Origin: an uncultured Alphaproteobacteria bacterium
GTDB lineage: Bacteria > Pseudomonadota > Alphaproteobacteria > Rhodobacterales > Rhodobacteraceae
Reading direction: 5' to 3'
NCBI GenBank assembly: GCA_902562285.1
Contig: CACESU010000006.1
Coordinates: 1 to 64,000, forward strand
Length of the DNA: 64,000 nucleotides
The notes under the pieces were generated by a model. It had not been told where the DNA came from. It saw only the letters and a list, made by a program, of their open reading frames with translations, and searched no databases. The translations under genes and the position numbers were made by a program. How positions within the stretch are numbered: position 1 is the first letter of the stretch; the number at the start of each line of letters is the position of its first letter. Below are positions 461 to 27,279 of the stretch, piece after piece.

Positions 461-1588
461 TTGCTAAAACAATTCTCATTAAACAAATTTTTAGAAAAAA
501 TGAATGTAGATACTTTCAATACTATAATTAATGATTTATTATTAAAATTATCCATTTGCCCCCACAACAAGCAAAAAGAAATATTTCAGCAATATGTTGA
601 TATATCACCTAAATTCATTGTTCAAAAAGTTAAAAAAATATTAATAGAATATCATCCGTTTTTATCTTTAGAATTAATTGAATTTTTAAACAAATCATAT
701 CCCTCAAAAGAAACTGGAATAAAGGAAAAGGCAGCGGATAAATTAGATGATTGTTTAAATTTATCATTATTGAGATTAAAAGCGAAAAGAGATCAATCAA
801 AAAAAATTGTAGTTTTTTGTCAGCCAAAATCGGGATCAACATTTTTAACAAATATCATTGCTAAAACACTTAACTTAGACATTCAAAATTTAAATACTTT
901 TTCATATAGACCAACGAACTTTGGAATAAATAATAGAGAACAAGAATTATGTGAACTATCTTTGCTCAAATCAGTATTTAGATCTTCCAATAACGGTGGT
1001 TTTATAGCTCAACACCATACAAAGGCAAATTCATACCTAGTTAACCAAATAAATTATTTTAATATTAAACCAATTATATTAACCCGTAATATATTTGATT
1101 CCTTAGTCTCCAATGATGATTTTATTGTAAAAAATCATCGTCATGCAAAAGAAAATAATTACTCAAATTTTTTAATAAATGGACGTGAGGTAGTCCCACA
1201 AAACTACATTGAATTAAGCTCTAAAAAAAGGCTTGATTTTTTAACAAAATCTTACGGCATTTGGTATGTTCAATTTTATCTTCATTGGAAAAGATATTTG
1301 AAATATTTAAATAATAGTTTTTGTTGGATTACTTATGAAAATGCTATATTAAACTATAAAAATTTAGAAAAAAATATTTCTAATTTTTTAAATTTAGACG
1401 AAATAGAAATTAAAAATCTAAATAAAACGTTTGATAATCATGAAAATATTCAGACTCGATTTAATAAGGGAATAACTGGAAGAGGAAATAAAATTTCCGA
1501 TGAATCAAAAAAATTCTTAAAAGATTATGCATGTTCTTTCACCGAATTGAATGAATATGATTTGCATAATTTATTTGGTTCAGAATAA
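461..1588 (+). CDS. Sulfotransferase-like P-loop protein
   Basis: A 375-residue protein with an N-terminal region of about 110 residues of no recognised family. It then has a sulfotransferase-type PAPS 5'-phosphosulfate loop, QPKSGST, at about residues 121-127, and a downstream LTRNIFDSLVS segment resembling the 3'-phosphate-binding motif. These features indicate a PAPS-dependent sulfotransferase fold; the acceptor is unknown, but a surface glycan is plausible next to the GT41 gene. The TTG at 461 gives the longest frame, while ATG at 500 (residue 14) is an equally possible start. Codon use is extremely AT-rich, unlike the preceding gene. It starts 12 bases after that gene's stop. Confidence 0.7.
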   Translation: MLKQFSLNKFLEKMNVDTFNTIINDLLLKLSICPHNKQKEIFQQYVDISPKFIVQKVKKILIEYHPFLSLELIEFLNKSYPSKETGIKEKAADKLDDCLNLSLLRLKAKRDQSKKIVVFCQPKSGSTFLTNIIAKTLNLDIQNLNTFSYRPTNFGINNREQELCELSLLKSVFRSSNNGGFIAQHHTKANSYLVNQINYFNIKPIILTRNIFDSLVSNDDFIVKNHRHAKENNYSNFLINGREVVPQNYIELSSKKRLDFLTKSYGIWYVQFYLHWKRYLKYLNNSFCWITYENAILNYKNLEKNISNFLNLDEIEIKNLNKTFDNHENIQTRFNKGITGRGNKISDESKKFLKDYACSFTELNEYDLHNLFGSE

Positions 1589-1602
1589 TCATTCTACCTT
1601 TG

Positions 1603-1620
1603 AAAGGCTTGTCCTTTTTT
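1603..1620 (+). terminator. Possible small Rho-independent terminator
   Basis: Fourteen bases after the sulfotransferase-like stop there is AAAGG - CTTGT loop - CCTTT followed by further T residues. The stem is only 5 bp, so this is a weak call. Confidence 0.35.
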
Positions 1621-2005
1621 ATCTAAAATCATTTGTAATGTTACCTTTAATCATTAATAAAATCATTAAGGAATTTATCCTTGCCTAATTCTAAGTAACT
1701 AGAATACATCTCTTACCGAATAAAAGATGTGTGATTTAAGAATTATTTTTTAATTCTAATTGATTGGTAGAAGGTAAATATATGATACATAACTATCTCC
1801 TTAAAATTATTTTTTAATTAACAATTAAAGAAGTAGAAATGTTGATTGGGTCTAATATAAGAGTGGCAATAACATTTGATTTCTTTTGATAATGGAATCA
1901 CCTTATTCTTTCAAAGGTGGTAAGACTGACTTATTCAACCTTATGCTTTCATTATACCATATAGTTATATGCAAAATTAATCTAAATACACGGAAAATCA
2001 CCCGT
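1621..2005. other. Non-coding stretch in accessory region
   Basis: No plausible gene on either strand; very AT-rich. A 13-base sequence at 1594-1606 reappears as an imperfect inverted copy (12 of 13) at 1908-1920, containing CTTTGAAAG/CTTTCAAAG. This could be a remnant of a small mobile element, but no target duplication or transposase is visible. Confidence 0.4.
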
Positions 2006-2154
2006 AAAAGGGTACACAATTAGGGTACACAAATATCTATTTACATTTGTATTTAATTTGGATAAAATCCATTATTAATGTTTATTAACAATGATTTAGG
2101 TATGAGTAATAATAAAAGAGAATTAAAAAAGGTTAAGCACCCCCTTGGCTCCAC
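2006..2154. repeat. Direct repeat copy 1, ending in a tRNA/tmRNA 3'-end-like sequence
   Basis: About 149 bp that recurs imperfectly at 3170-3317 in the same orientation. It opens with two tandem AGGGTACACAA boxes (2009-2019 and 2022-2032, period 13) and contains ATGTTTAT-AACAAT and GTAATAATAAA. It ends with GGTTAAGCACCCCCTTGG followed by CTCCACCA (to 2156). That ending resembles the T-arm and acceptor 3' strand, with CCA, of a tRNA or tmRNA, but there is no matching 5' half. I infer an integration-site (att-like) remnant. The GGGTAC boxes could be integrase or excisionase arm sites. Confidence 0.75.
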
Positions 2155-2181
2155 CATATATTCATTTTCTGTAAAAATCAT

Positions 2182-2970
2182 TTAAACTTTTATTAGTATG
2201 CCTTGCCCAGTTGGTAATTCTAATATTTCTTGTCCATATTTATTAGCAATTGGATCTAATGCAACTTTTTGACTATGATAGCAGTACCACCCATAATCAT
2301 CAAAAATTATAACGGCACCAATTGGCATTTTAGGTAATATCATTTCCAGTGCTGCAGTTTCAGGAACCCAATGATTCATATCAATATGTGCAAAGGCAAT
2401 TTGATCAGGAATAGTATCTTCCAGAGTATCAGGTACACGCCCTTTTATAATCTTAACATTTTTATTTTTATTGAATTTTTTACATACTTCGAGATATAAA
2501 TTTTTGTTAAAAAGTCCATCTAAAGGAGAATGATCATCACCTTCTTTCCATTCAAAAAGATCATATAAAAAATAATCCTTTTCTAAACGATTAAAATCAA
2601 TTTTTTCTGTTAAGACTTGAGCCGTATGACCTTCGTATGTCCCTAGTTCAAGATAATCGCCCACTAATTTTGTACAAATTTTTGCAAAATAAACTAATAT
2701 ATATGTTCTCCATACTACTGCTTTATCAGTCAAACTTAATTCTTTATCGTTCAAAATATTTATATAAAAGGGATCTCTTAAAAAACCATAATTTCTGTTC
2801 CAACAAATCATATTATCTGAGGAATAGATGGTTTTAGCAAATTCCCCTAAAGATTCCTTAATTAGGCTTAAACCTTTTATAAATTTTTCTTCATCAATAT
2901 TAAAATGACCAACTTCTAACCTTACTGGCGGAAAATTTTCAACTTTATTTTGAATATATTGATCAACCAT
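2182..2970 (-). CDS. TylF/macrocin-O-methyltransferase-like SAM methyltransferase
   Basis: A 262-residue protein with the SAM-binding signature YLELGTYEGHTA in the middle and a C-terminal FAHIDMNHW...GAVIIFDDYGW segment. Both are typical of the TylF/MycF class of metal-dependent sugar or small-molecule O-methyltransferases, where the Asp-rich FDDYGW region helps bind metal. In free-living marine bacteria such genes often modify surface polysaccharide, which fits the glycosyltransferase and sulfotransferase-like neighbours; the real acceptor is unknown. It is the only gene between the two direct repeats and is transcribed against the two genes to its left. Confidence 0.8.
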   Translation of the reverse strand: MVDQYIQNKVENFPPVRLEVGHFNIDEEKFIKGLSLIKESLGEFAKTIYSSDNMICWNRNYGFLRDPFYINILNDKELSLTDKAVVWRTYILVYFAKICTKLVGDYLELGTYEGHTAQVLTEKIDFNRLEKDYFLYDLFEWKEGDDHSPLDGLFNKNLYLEVCKKFNKNKNVKIIKGRVPDTLEDTIPDQIAFAHIDMNHWVPETAALEMILPKMPIGAVIIFDDYGWYCYHSQKVALDPIANKYGQEILELPTGQGILIKV

Positions 2971-3169
2971 TTTTTTATAATCTATTATTATTATTTAAGT
3001 TTATTATTAATTAGCATGTTATTCTAAAGACCTAAGTTGTTATTAATTTTAATTTAATATATTTAATCAAACATTTAAATTAAGTTTCCAAGCATAATCT
3101 TGCAAAATTTGTTCCATTTATTATTGCTAAATCAATAATGAGTAAAATGAATAAACTATATATTCTAGA
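2971..3169. other. Non-coding AT-rich upstream region of the methyltransferase gene
   Basis: About 200 bases with no gene-like frame. It presumably contains the promoter of the leftward methyltransferase gene, but no confident -35/-10 pair can be singled out from the uniform AT background. Confidence 0.4.
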
Positions 3170-3317
3170 AAAAGGGTACTCCATTAGGGTATACAATTAT
3201 TTATTTGAATTTCTTTTGAAATAAGTTATTTTTCTTATTTGATGTTTATAAACAATAAGTTATATATGTGTAATAATAAAGGAGAGTTAAATAGGTTAAG
3301 CACCCCCTTGGCTCCAC
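3170..3317. repeat. Direct repeat copy 2, ending in a tRNA/tmRNA 3'-end-like sequence
   Basis: Second copy of the ~149 bp repeat at 2006-2154. It has the same order of elements: paired AGGGTA boxes (3173-3183 and 3186-3196, again period 13), ATGTTTATAAACAAT, GTAATAATAAA, then GGTTAAGCACCCCCTTGG and CTCCAC. It diverges at the very end (CCACTA rather than CCACCA). Small indels between copies rule out a shared reading frame, so this is a DNA- or RNA-level element. Together the copies bracket a 1.16 kb unit carrying one methyltransferase gene. Confidence 0.75.
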
Positions 3318-3360
3318 TAAATCCCTTTTTGAGATTGTCGTGAATAATAATTTAAAACAA

Positions 3361-4329
3361 TCAATTAAGATCGTCTTCAATAAATATCTTAATAATTTCG
3401 TTAAAATTATTTTCAGATTTAAATCCTAACTGTGATGCTTTAAGATGTGAGAAATTTTTAGGCCATCCTTTAACCATATTTTGTATTGATAAATCTTTTT
3501 TTGGAACAATCAGATCAACTGCTTTTTGTCCAGCTATAGATCTTAATGACTCAATTTGTTCTTCTACTGTACAACTTACTCCAGGAAGGTTTAATGATCT
3601 CCTATTTTCTAGTTGGAAAGTTTCTAGTGATACTGCATGAATCAAAAAATTTACTGCAGATCTTGGAGATGCATGCCAATGTCGGACTGATGGATCAACA
3701 GGTAAATATGCTTTTTTACCATTTAAAGGTTCCCTAATAATATTTGAAAAAAAACCTGAAGTAGCTTTATTGGGTGTTCCTGGTCTAACACAAATAGTTG
3801 GTAGTCTAAGGGAAATTCCATTGATAAAGCCTTTCCTACTGAAATCAGAAATCAAAATTTCTATTGAAGCTTTTTGTGCTCCATAACTAGTCTGTGGAGA
3901 ACAAAGAAATTCGTCATCTATCTTATCTGGGAACGGAGAGCCAAATACAGCTATTGATGATGTAAAAATTACTTTTGGAATATACTTTCTAGAACTATTT
4001 AGATGTTCTACTTTTAAAGCAGATAAAAAATTCCACATTGAGAAAAGATTTACATTCCAACCCTTCTCAAAATTTTCTTCTGCCTCACCAGAGACAACAG
4101 ATGCTAGATAAAAAATTAAACCAAATCTTTCAGATGAGAATTCTTTTAGTATCTCACTATTCTCAACTGTACCTATTACACGCCTTATCCTAGTGTCTTT
4201 ATATTTTGGTAAATATAGATCAAAAAGACATATTTCATCAATATTGAAAGCATTAAAGTTTGGTTCAAGAAGTTTATAAACTAATTTTTGACCAACCATA
4301 CCTCCTGCACCAATAATCAATATTTTCAT
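3361..4329 (-). CDS. denD: NAD-dependent epimerase/dehydratase family protein, D-erythronate dehydrogenase (DenD)-like
   Basis: An extended short-chain dehydrogenase of 322 residues with Rossmann GAGGMVG at 7-13, TSSIAVFG at about 123-130 and catalytic Y149-x3-K153. The later stretch LPTICVRPGTPNKATSG and SVRHWHASPRSAV is characteristic of the DenD subfamily, which oxidises D-erythronate at C2 with NAD in tetronate catabolism. Whether erythronate is the substrate here is inferred, because the usual partners (OtnK/OtnC-type kinase and aldolase) are not in the window. It lies next to FGGY sugar kinase genes in the same leftward orientation, 140 bases downstream of the first. Confidence 0.8.
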   Translation of the reverse strand: MKILIIGAGGMVGQKLVYKLLEPNFNAFNIDEICLFDLYLPKYKDTRIRRVIGTVENSEILKEFSSERFGLIFYLASVVSGEAEENFEKGWNVNLFSMWNFLSALKVEHLNSSRKYIPKVIFTSSIAVFGSPFPDKIDDEFLCSPQTSYGAQKASIEILISDFSRKGFINGISLRLPTICVRPGTPNKATSGFFSNIIREPLNGKKAYLPVDPSVRHWHASPRSAVNFLIHAVSLETFQLENRRSLNLPGVSCTVEEQIESLRSIAGQKAVDLIVPKKDLSIQNMVKGWPKNFSHLKASQLGFKSENNFNEIIKIFIEDDLN

Positions 4330-4469
4330 CCTAGTACTCTCTTGATATTTTTATAATAAATCTAAGGCAGATATTTATATTTATTTCTTAATTTTTATTA
4401 ACCTTTTAGATCATGCTTTTTTTATAAATTTTATTATAACCGTTTATATTGAGAAATAATTTATAAGTT

Positions 4470-5957
4470 TTATTTTTTTAGTAAAGTAGATGTATTTTTA
4501 TATAAATTTTTGAATAACTCAAACTGCTTAAGATATAAAGGATCTGGATATGATTTAATAACACAGTCCAAAGGATTCCAATTAAAAATATCTTTTCTTA
4601 ATACATCACCTATGGCAAGTGCTGCAAGAAATGAATTGCCATATGCTGCACCTACAGTAATTTTTTTTACTTCTTGATTGAAACCAGAAATATTAGAAAT
4701 TGTGCTTGACCAAATATTATTTTTCACACCTCCTCCCACTGCAAAAAGTGTTTTTGGTTTAAAACCAGATTCTGTAAATGTTTCTAGAATATGATTTGCT
4801 CCATAACTAATCCCCTCAATTATAGATCTGTAAATATCTTCTCTCTTATGTGTTAAATTTAAACCAAAAATTATTCCACATGCATCAGGATTTTGAATTG
4901 GTGTCCTTTCACCCGAAAAATATGGAAGTGTTATTAAATTTTTTGATCCAATTGGGCTTTTTTCTGCCATTCTTGATAACTCATTAAAAGCATTTTCTGA
5001 GTTAAGATCTTTTGCAAATTCTTTTTTAAACCATTGTGTTACGGTTCCGCTTGTAGAAGTACCTGCCATTAAAGCAAATTCATTTTTAAATAACCATGGA
5101 GCAGACCATAATGTTTCATTTGACTTATTACCATTTGTCAGACCAATAAAAAACATTGTAGATCCATACATAATCATAATATCGCCAGCATCCTTTACCC
5201 CTACACTTATAGCTTCTGCTGCAGCGTCTATTGTTCCCACAGTAACGGGCGTCCCTTGTTGCAAAGTAGTTTCTAATGAAGCTTGCTTTGTAATATATCC
5301 AGCAATCTCTGTTGACCACTTTAATTCAGGGAGTTTTGATATATCAATAATATCTTTTGAAAGTTCACTACTCCACTTAAGATTCATTTTATCATAAAGA
5401 GGCGTAAAGTTGGCAGCAGTATAATGATCTATAACACATTGATCTGTAAGTTTTTGAACTATAAAAGTTGTAGATGTTACTATTTTTTCTGCTTTTTTAT
5501 AAATATCAGGATGATGGGTCTTAAGCCAAAGAATTTTTGGACCAATTGATTGAGAGGTTAAGGCATTTCCACCAAAATTAAAAATTTTTTCATTACCTAA
5601 TGTATTATTTAAATAGTTAATCTCATTAGTCGCCCTTGTATCAACCCCATATAAGACACCCGAATACAATGGTTCTGTTTTATTATCAATTGGTAACATA
5701 CATGGACCAATTGCACTTACTGCAACACATTTTATTTGCTCAGGAAAAATATCTTTTTTCTTTAAAAGTTGTTTTGTTATCTTTACAAAATCTCCCCACC
5801 AAACATCTTTAGGTGAGTGTTCGGCCCAACCAGGCTTTGGCACGATCATTTCATGCTTTATAGATGCTTGATTATAAATATTTCCTTCATGGTCAACCAA
5901 GACACCTTTTGTTTCATATGTTCCAATATCAACTCCAAGATATAATTTTTTAACCAT
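4470..5957 (-). CDS. FGGY-family carbohydrate kinase (xylulokinase-like)
   Basis: A full-length 495-residue FGGY kinase: N-terminal phosphate-1 motif LGVDIGTYETKGVLVD, a mid-protein GTIDAAAEAISVG segment, and the C-terminal FGGY-type adenosine region AVGGGVKNNIW...GAAYGNSFLAA. The family phosphorylates ketoses or polyols (xylulose, ribulose, fuculose, glycerol, erythritol). Length and the GWAEHSPKDVWW motif put it near xylulokinases, but the sugar cannot be fixed from sequence. It lies upstream of the DenD-like gene on the same strand and diverges from a second FGGY kinase across a 370-base gap, suggesting shared control. Confidence 0.85.
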   Translation of the reverse strand: MVKKLYLGVDIGTYETKGVLVDHEGNIYNQASIKHEMIVPKPGWAEHSPKDVWWGDFVKITKQLLKKKDIFPEQIKCVAVSAIGPCMLPIDNKTEPLYSGVLYGVDTRATNEINYLNNTLGNEKIFNFGGNALTSQSIGPKILWLKTHHPDIYKKAEKIVTSTTFIVQKLTDQCVIDHYTAANFTPLYDKMNLKWSSELSKDIIDISKLPELKWSTEIAGYITKQASLETTLQQGTPVTVGTIDAAAEAISVGVKDAGDIMIMYGSTMFFIGLTNGNKSNETLWSAPWLFKNEFALMAGTSTSGTVTQWFKKEFAKDLNSENAFNELSRMAEKSPIGSKNLITLPYFSGERTPIQNPDACGIIFGLNLTHKREDIYRSIIEGISYGANHILETFTESGFKPKTLFAVGGGVKNNIWSSTISNISGFNQEVKKITVGAAYGNSFLAALAIGDVLRKDIFNWNPLDCVIKSYPDPLYLKQFELFKNLYKNTSTLLKK

Positions 5958-6327
5958 TTGATATTCCTTTAATAATCATAATAATATTGATTTTTTTAAC
6001 AAAATAGTATGGCTCAAACATCCTAATATGTTCTGATCAATTAGTAAATTCCCTCAACACTAGAAAACTAATTGTAATCTTAAGTCCTATATCTAAAAAA
6101 TTTTTCTCTTCATAGAAGAATACCTTTAAAATAAAACTAAAATATTTCGCTGAAATTTATTTCAAAATTAAATCAAAACCTATACAAATTTTAAAATCCA
6201 TGCTTTATTAGATATCTATTGTTATCGTAATTTTCCTATGGATTATAGGCTTTGTTCTTAAGTAGAAAGATGATTTTAAGTTGTTTGAATTGGATAAAAA
6301 TTAAAGTAATCTCAGAATACTAATTAA
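5958..6327. promoter_or_regulatory. Divergent intergenic region between two FGGY kinase genes
   Basis: A 370-base gap, long for this compact genome, separating leftward and rightward kinase genes. It must hold both promoters. I see no riboswitch-like structure, no clear operator palindrome and no local regulator gene. Confidence 0.5.
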
Positions 6328-18135: not shown

Positions 18136-18211
18136 TGGTGAGCCCGACAGGATTCGAACCTGTGACCCACTGATTAAAAGTCAGTTGCTCTACCAACTGA
18201 GCTACGGGCCC
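18136..18211 (-). tRNA. tRNA-Lys (anticodon UUU)
   Basis: Read on the minus strand: acceptor GGGCCCG pairs with CGGGCTC, the D-arm is AGCTCAGTTGGTAGAGC, the anticodon stem-loop CTGACTTTTAATCAG gives TTT, and the T-arm is CAGGTTCGAATCCTG. The 3' CCA is encoded. All 76 bases form a normal cloverleaf. Confidence 0.97.
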
Positions 18212-26517: not shown

Positions 26518-27279
26518 TTATATTTCCTTACTAGCATATAGTAAAAATTCCTTATTGCCTGATCTTCCCCGTATTGGGCTATTCTTTATTCCAATCACTT
26601 GCCATTTAATTGCTTTCATAAAATCCTCAATTTTATTAATCACTTCTTCAATATACTCATCTTTTTTTACAACACCATTTTTATTTAAACTTTTTTTAGA
26701 TAATTCAAATTGTGGTTTAATTAAGCAAATCATTTTTGTTTTAGAAGGCACTGTTAACATTAATATTGGTAATGCTACCGTTAATGATATAAAAGATAAA
26801 TCCACTACCAACAAATCTGGAGTGGGTATATTTAGATTGCGTATTGCTCTTATATCTGTTGAAGAAATGTCAAAAACTCTTTTATCATTTTTTAATTTTT
26901 CATGTAATTGATCAGTTCCTACATCAATTGAATAAACTAATTTAGCACCTTTTTCTAAGCAAACCTGAGTAAATCCACCAGCAGACGCTCCTATATCATA
27001 TACAACCTTTTCTGCCACATCTAATTCAAAGCTATTTATTGCAAATAATAATTTTATAGCACCACGACTTACCCATTGCTTTGAATTCTCTTCAATGAAA
27101 ATTTCATCATCAACTTTAACTAAATAAGAAGGTTTTGATATAGTTTTAGAATTAACTAATACCTTTCCTTCTTTTATAAGATCGCTAGCTTTTGCTCTAC
27201 TTTCTGATAAACCCAAATTAAAAACCATTGAATCTAACCTAAAACTTTTGTCAGCACTTTTTAAATTTATTTTGTTCAT
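26518..27279 (-). CDS. tlyA: TlyA-family rRNA 2'-O-methyltransferase / S4-domain protein
   Basis: A 253-residue protein with an N-terminal S4 RNA-binding domain (MVFNLGLSESRAKASDLIKEGKV region) joined to an FtsJ-like Rossmann methyltransferase: VVYDIGASAGGFTQVCLEKGA near residue 92 and the DLLVVDLSFISL motif near 155. TlyA proteins methylate ribose in 16S and 23S rRNA; the older hemolysin label has little functional basis. It diverges from hemF over 90 bases. Confidence 0.92.
   Translation of the reverse strand: MNKINLKSADKSFRLDSMVFNLGLSESRAKASDLIKEGKVLVNSKTISKPSYLVKVDDEIFIEENSKQWVSRGAIKLLFAINSFELDVAEKVVYDIGASAGGFTQVCLEKGAKLVYSIDVGTDQLHEKLKNDKRVFDISSTDIRAIRNLNIPTPDLLVVDLSFISLTVALPILMLTVPSKTKMICLIKPQFELSKKSLNKNGVVKKDEYIEEVINKIEDFMKAIKWQVIGIKNSPIRGRSGNKEFLLYASKEI

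Follow-up and report, generated by a model that had tools for sequence, protein, structure and literature searches.

What has placed two imperfect direct repeats on either side of a single gene near the end of a contig, when no integrase ORF lies between the two copies? The locus is found at the start of a stretch of 64,000 nucleotides (the window), which begins at base 1 of contig C6 in the assembly of an uncultured bacterium of the Rhodobacteraceae (G000; 106 contigs, 1.73 Mb, 67.8% complete). It was compared with the other genomes of its genus (12 with its own), among them the same-genus relative AG-910-B21 (G001). A first-pass annotation had considered the repeats and the enclosed gene as a minimal cassette mobilised in trans. 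The comparisons point rather to an integration hotspot at tRNA-Ala(GGC) with the locus at its outer end, shaped by successive integrations at one tRNA, later decay and CIME-like accretion, a reading to which a probability of about 0.85 is given.

The repeats and their tRNA-Ala core

The two repeats are beyond chance. In a BLAST search of copy 1 against its own genome, the copies (2006-2155 and 3170-3317) were paired at 79% identity (E 5e-29), and the remaining 21 of the 23 matches listed for this assembly were of 15-29 nt with E 0.06 or worse. The copies are identical at 118 of 150 aligned positions and their local score is 139; in 500 simulated pairs no score above 36 was reached, and copy 1 scored no more than 37 against 1000 random segments of the window. 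Likewise, GGTTAAGCACCCCCTTGG is present exactly twice in the window, where the shuffle expectation has a mean of 0.02 (100 shuffles, up to 3 mismatches). The direct repeats of ~149 bp described by the first-pass annotation are thus real, and so are the paired AGGGTAC boxes reported within them, which are spaced by 13 bp in both copies. One other box-pair match in the window, at 26928 and with 6 substitutions, looks like chance. The annotation was equally right in placing a single TylF-like methyltransferase, with a weak TylF match, and no integrase between the copies: it is the one ORF of at least 80 aa within 2006-3317, and no integration or transfer genes are found among such ORFs there (Table 1).

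The repeats end in tRNA sequence. Copy 1 closes with 17 bases, and copy 2 with 15, from the 3' end of tRNA-Ala(GGC), and a complete tRNA-Ala(GGC) gene ending like both cores is present in the same genome, on a different contig (C11:1766-1841, minus strand). Copy 1 continues into CCA (2154-2156) and copy 2 has CTA there (3317-3319); the two cores are spaced by 1163 bp. Of the earlier suggestion of a tRNA or tmRNA 3' end, the first part is borne out and the second is rejected, as no match to alpha_tmRNA (RF01849) was obtained in the genome and no other tmRNA family was found in the window. The final block had also been taken as a T-arm and acceptor end, which is correct for its last 17 bases and not for the rest: only CCCCCTTGGCTCCACCA is tRNA sequence, and the preceding GGTTAAGCA, also present in the repeat copy of G001, is non-tRNA. 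The sole tRNA of the window is a tRNA-Lys(TTT) at 18136-18211.

Judged by sequence, the repeats are in all likelihood leftover attachment (att) sites of mobile DNA inserting at the 3' end of tRNA-Ala. Integron attC sites carry the consensus GTTRRRY, which GTTAAGC fits, and each of the two minus-strand genes has one repeat after it. The idea that the repeats are attC-type sites, one after each gene, can nevertheless be given almost no weight, with a core that is the 3' end of tRNA-Ala, no partner site visible by eye and a linked recombinase in the relative that is a tRNA-adjacent integrase.

Table 1. Features at the start of the window (positions in the window)
Feature	Position	Strand	Reading or basis
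OGT/SPINDLY-like gene, C-terminal part, cut by contig end	1..448	+	PF13844, 414-543 of 543; SPINDLY and OGT structures
Sulfotransferase-like gene, probable cargo of inner element	461..1588	+	PF00685, E 1.6e-5, 24.9 bits (cut-off 22)
Broken first small ORF of inner element	1647..1790	-	Interrupted by two in-frame stops where the ORF at L025:2029 is open
Copy 1	2006..2156	+	Putative distal att region of inner (tRNA-nearer) element; identity to G001 island end
Paired AGGGTAC boxes of copy 1	2009..2032	+	Putative integrase arm sites; pair also just inside both G001 island ends
Att core 1: 17-nt tRNA-Ala 3' end with CCA	2140..2156	+	Identity to the tRNA at G000:C11:1766-1841
Methyltransferase, class I, cargo gene	2182..2970	-	PF13578 (Methyltransf_24), E 2e-10; PF05711 (TylF), E 6e-6
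Copy 2	3170..3319	+	Putative outermost att region, adjoining the chromosomal flank; identity to G001 island end and flank common to G007 and G009
Paired AGGGTAC boxes of copy 2	3173..3196	+	Box-pair search
Att core 2: 15-nt tRNA-Ala 3' end, CCA mutated to CTA	3303..3317	+	Core comparison
Epimerase-like gene, chromosomal flank of hotspot	3361..4329	-	Matches at E<=1e-60 in 8 of 12 genus genomes; function named from translation alone

Variable islands at tRNA-Ala in the genus

An exact search with the 24-nt core pattern gave one match in the genome collection, AG-910-B21. With up to 2 mismatches the pattern was matched in 36 of 147 genomes, being exact only in G000 (twice) and G001 (once), and only these exact ones were taken further. 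In G001 the repeat occurs once in full, after a homologue (71% identical) of the epimerase-like gene, and tRNA-Ala lies ~11.1 kb beyond the repeat with its 3' end towards the island. Copies 1 and 2 are identical to this island end at 125 and 126 of 150 aligned positions, respectively. The direct repeat of the tRNA 3' end at both boundaries is thus present in the window, and in G001 both boundaries are carried on one contig. The island encodes a RusA-like ORF, a DUF5906/VapE-like protein, a TPR-methyltransferase, a resolvase and a tyrosine integrase, the last of which falls slightly under the cut-off for PF00589 and matches a PHROG integrase at E 4e-22.

An AGGGTAC pair lies just inside either end of the G001 island, the one at the tRNA end being at the 5' end of the integrase ORF. 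A related pair with 4 substitutions occurs at the tRNA end in G011, and one GGGTACAC box in the tRNA-Ala flank on C11 of the own genome. By its sequence the G001 layout corresponds to an att system in which arm sites, here the boxes, would be bound by the integrase; both this binding and the activity of the enzyme are predicted. An integrase gene next to the intact tRNA is seen in G001 and not in the own genome (67.8% complete assembly). A non-coding stretch of ~200 nt, 81% alike, precedes the cargo genes at two tRNA islands of G001 (L095 219-421 and L027 5381-5584), and could represent a promoter or junction common to both.

The integrase was searched for with 642 aa of its 682-aa ORF, from a few residues ahead of a likely ATG, its start being provisional. 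Among 394 genomes of the family this query gave one match at E<=1e-20 (31% identity), with no tRNA within the surrounding 4.7 kb. Phage satellites are known to carry VapE or primase genes, and the G001 island is like them in its DUF5906/VapE-like primase-helicase and RusA-like protein; it is unlike them in that the proteins scanned included none recognisable as a packaging or capsid protein, and no relative was found in viral contigs or phage records. In the viral contigs the core pattern was absent by exact search, and the pattern stretches obtained with the integrase (7) and with the DUF5906 protein (6) included none that could be confirmed. Phage records held no relative of the methyltransferase or of the integrase.

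The exact tRNA-Ala end is present in 11 of the 12 genus genomes, at all of which ARAGORN gives tRNA-Ala(GGC), and the epimerase-like gene in 8. The two share a contig in five genomes, with gaps from 184 bp to 11.3 kb and differing contents. For example, the gap in G002 is 184 bp and without cargo, that in G007 is 1.2 kb and holds a different TylF-like methyltransferase, and that in G009 is 7.5 kb and includes an integrase fragment along with a DUF1800 protein and further genes; G011 has 11.2 kb of other cargo with an integrase fragment, and G001 11.3 kb with the island and its intact integrase. Variable content at a conserved site is hence observed, each of the five linked genomes being different and one cargo-free. 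The G001-type integrase is intact in 1 of the 12 genomes and fragmentary in 2 (G009, G011).

The first-pass annotation had seen in the repeats a partial duplication of the kind that an integrase makes at a tRNA attB, and this is upheld by the tRNA-Ala of the own genome, the intact integrase of the relative and the variable cargo. It had counted against itself the lack of any tRNA or tmRNA with this end, or fixed content in related strains; a tRNA-Ala gene with this end and cargo variation were found.

A second integrase family (Arm-DNA-bind_3, Phage_int_M, Phage_integrase) adjoins the same tRNA-Ala in G010 (L076 1646-2803) and G004 (L080 7369-8529), and is represented in G008 by a fragment at a contig end. 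In G010 the elements are stacked, with the second-family integrase at tRNA-Ala and a further core with first-family element-side flank 20 kb on. Neither family gave a match in the own assembly (67.8% complete). An integrase match at G008:C25 (26%, E 1e-6) was set aside as a different family. P4-type integrase matches also occur off tRNA-Ala, at G011:C7 near tRNA-Ser, G010:C1 and G007:C52. Beside the second-family integrase of G010 (L076 4403-11309) are an ORF of 1818 aa, which has by eye the look of a kinase-helicase fusion, and then one of 485 aa; from their sequence the two are possibly a defence system.

Three cores with 2 substitutions each are found on G006:C4 (L044 663, 2851 and 6194; span 663-6209), surrounding an EamA transporter gene and a zinc-uptake set of ZnuA, Fur-like, ABC ATPase and ABC-3 genes. 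Neither integrase family was matched in G006, and no integrase was recognised among the 5 scanned of the 6 ORFs of at least 80 aa between the cores. The G006 locus is a possible second att-flanked cassette array. No core was found on G005:C55, one of 15 matches from which those at G011:C3, G011:C52 and G001:C1:267173 were left out.

Homologues of the methyltransferase are present in 4 of the 12 genus genomes (the own genome, G001, G005 and G007). That of G001 (74%; L095 134-1910, on G001:C7) lies 451 bp from the 3' end of tRNA-Tyr, at a locus with 204 nt common to the interior of the tRNA-Ala island (81%) and 75 nt resembling the integrase gene (75%), and the methyltransferase is therefore tied independently to this element family. 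The tRNA-Tyr of G001 appears as a second tRNA hotspot for related elements. Between the window and G007 the epimerase-like proteins are 98% identical and the methyltransferases 40%, which implies that the cargo has been exchanged. In G007, 1139 bp separate the tRNA core from a degraded distal core, around one methyltransferase, and the locus keeps DNA common to the tRNA-side region of G009, including the integrase start (84% over 395 nt).

Proposed order of events and alternative readings

The proposed history would begin with a tyrosine integrase recombining the att site of an element with the 3' end of the tRNA. On the side of the integrase the tRNA would remain complete, and at the far end 17 bp duplicated from its 3' end would stay beside the arm-site region of the element. 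At least two elements would have integrated in succession at the same tRNA, the later displacing the earlier outward, and mobility genes would then have been lost from both. The 1.16 kb unit would be a remnant of the outer element, comprising its distal att region and methyltransferase cargo, and its other boundary would be the distal att region of the inner element. What we infer is the sequence of these events, that C11 joins C6, that the boxes are bound by the integrase, and that the outer element once carried an integrase and lost it.

The two boundaries differ in what lies beside them. The flank outside copy 2 matches the one outside the distal core in both G009 (93% over 131 nt with the core counted in) and G007 (90% over 83 nt), and copy 2 is therefore taken as the outermost boundary. 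The sequence after tRNA-Ala in G002 resembles the flank beyond the distal core of G001 in a 54-nt alignment at the same offset, a score reached by 0.9% of 2000 random segments; this is modestly in line with what an unoccupied site would look like. At copy 1, similarity to the G001 island end extends from 2160 to 1641 (72% over 532 aligned nt), ~365 bases past the repeat. On the inner side of copy 2 (2971-3169) nothing similar to the G001 island was seen, and in the methyltransferase unit no element sequence was recognised apart from the att region itself.

The tRNA side of the inner element would lie on C11. Two segments of the tRNA-Ala flank there match the G001 island, one at 87.6% over 249 nt and one at 84% over 171 nt; no integrase ORF follows as far as the contig end, and beyond this flank a TPR gene runs off the contig. 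Its product is most like TPR proteins, OGT and SPINDLY among them, which is non-specific. This piece and the OGT-like piece on C6 are presumed to be a single OGT-like gene, and for this reason the contigs, which are unjoined in the assembly, would join with a gap.

A segmental duplication that carried one att region across the gene, with no second integration, would account for the direct orientation and the short distance of the copies. However, each copy is nearer to the G001 copy than to the other copy, by small differences in identity (125 and 126 against 118 of 150), and two integrations are for this reason slightly favoured. The mutual similarity of the copies also stops at the repeat, and copy 1 alone runs on into element sequence. 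Such a duplication is accordingly judged very improbable.

At the inner, tRNA-side junction of the unit, no box pair was found in the box-pair search. A trace of element-side flank at 2157-2181 is equalled in score by 2.1% of random and 4.1% of AT-matched segments, and the cargo-free flank of G002 scores higher than it on the same test; the trace is suggestive only and appears non-specific. The loss of an integrase from the methyltransferase unit is thus presumed and not seen, because there is no inner box pair and the flank trace is weak.

The same junction bears on whether integrases of other resident elements excise and insert the 1.16 kb unit in trans as a minimal cassette without an integrase of its own, as the first-pass annotation had ventured. 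Such a cassette would carry the tRNA-Ala end at both its ends, as this unit does. The similar size of the G007 unit (1139 against 1163 bp from core to core, with a single methyltransferase), the 74% homologue at tRNA-Tyr in G001 and the three degraded cores of G006 around the transporter gene and the zinc-uptake set are also in its favour. Yet the box pair is missing at the inner junction, the CCA of copy 2 is mutated, the element ORF adjoining copy 1 is broken and neither integrase family has a relative in the own, incomplete assembly. Further, decayed full elements are the simpler reading at both G007 and the tRNA-Tyr of G001, since pieces like the integrase (the start of the gene in the former, 75 nt in the latter) adjoin both. 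Mobilisation in trans is hence unsupported and is judged improbable, if less so than the local duplication. A similarly low probability is given to the wider proposal that the genus stocks integrase-less, att-flanked cassettes of single genes or operons at its tRNA genes, which visiting integrases swap in trans. If it were true, such a stock, with the methyltransferase here and the transporter gene and zinc-uptake set of G006, would make tRNA-Ala a cassette dock for surface and nutrient genes. Under the preferred history of successive integrations and decay, the methyltransferase between the repeats is most likely cargo that was stranded once the mobile machinery had decayed.

Known systems and biological meaning

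The general mechanism is already well known, and the locus is a further instance of it in a marine alphaproteobacterium. The literature on tandem ICE/IME describes integration, decay to a CIME and a second integration in the att site that holds the end of the target gene (PMC5704250). The 2006-3317 unit is like a CIME in having no integration or transfer genes among its ORFs of at least 80 aa. It has cores at both ends, with copy 2 mutated and no box pair on the inner side, and it is unlike a CIME in that one of its two arms is missing. As to the descent of CIMEs from ICE/IME, the intact relative carries an integrase and primase-like genes, no relaxase or conjugation module being apparent there.

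Likewise, the ssrA islands of Dehalococcoides form tandem modules with direct repeats of a single RNA gene's 3' end at their borders; 15 of the islands are without an integration module, and a small extra resolvase-like recombinase accompanies the integrase (PMC3146451). The present locus shares with them the repeats of an RNA gene's 3' end, here that of a tRNA, the integrase-less units and, in G001, the resolvase beside the integrase. It differs in its target, tRNA-Ala instead of ssrA, and in the tyrosine integrase of the relative instead of the serine recombinase DsiB. Tycheposons are comparable in the tRNA border, tyrosine recombinase, variable cargo and small marine genomes, and differ in the tRNA used (PMC10872708). 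No published account of the hotspot was apparent from titles and listings on tRNA-Ala islands in marine genomes or the Rhodobacteraceae, or on AG-910-B21.

A variable island hotspot is now placed in an incomplete marine alphaproteobacterial genome, and an integrase preserved intact in one relative is provided with a defined attB, an att core and candidate arm sites. The cargo exchanged at this hotspot includes modifying enzymes, namely methyltransferases, a sulfotransferase-like and an OGT-like protein.
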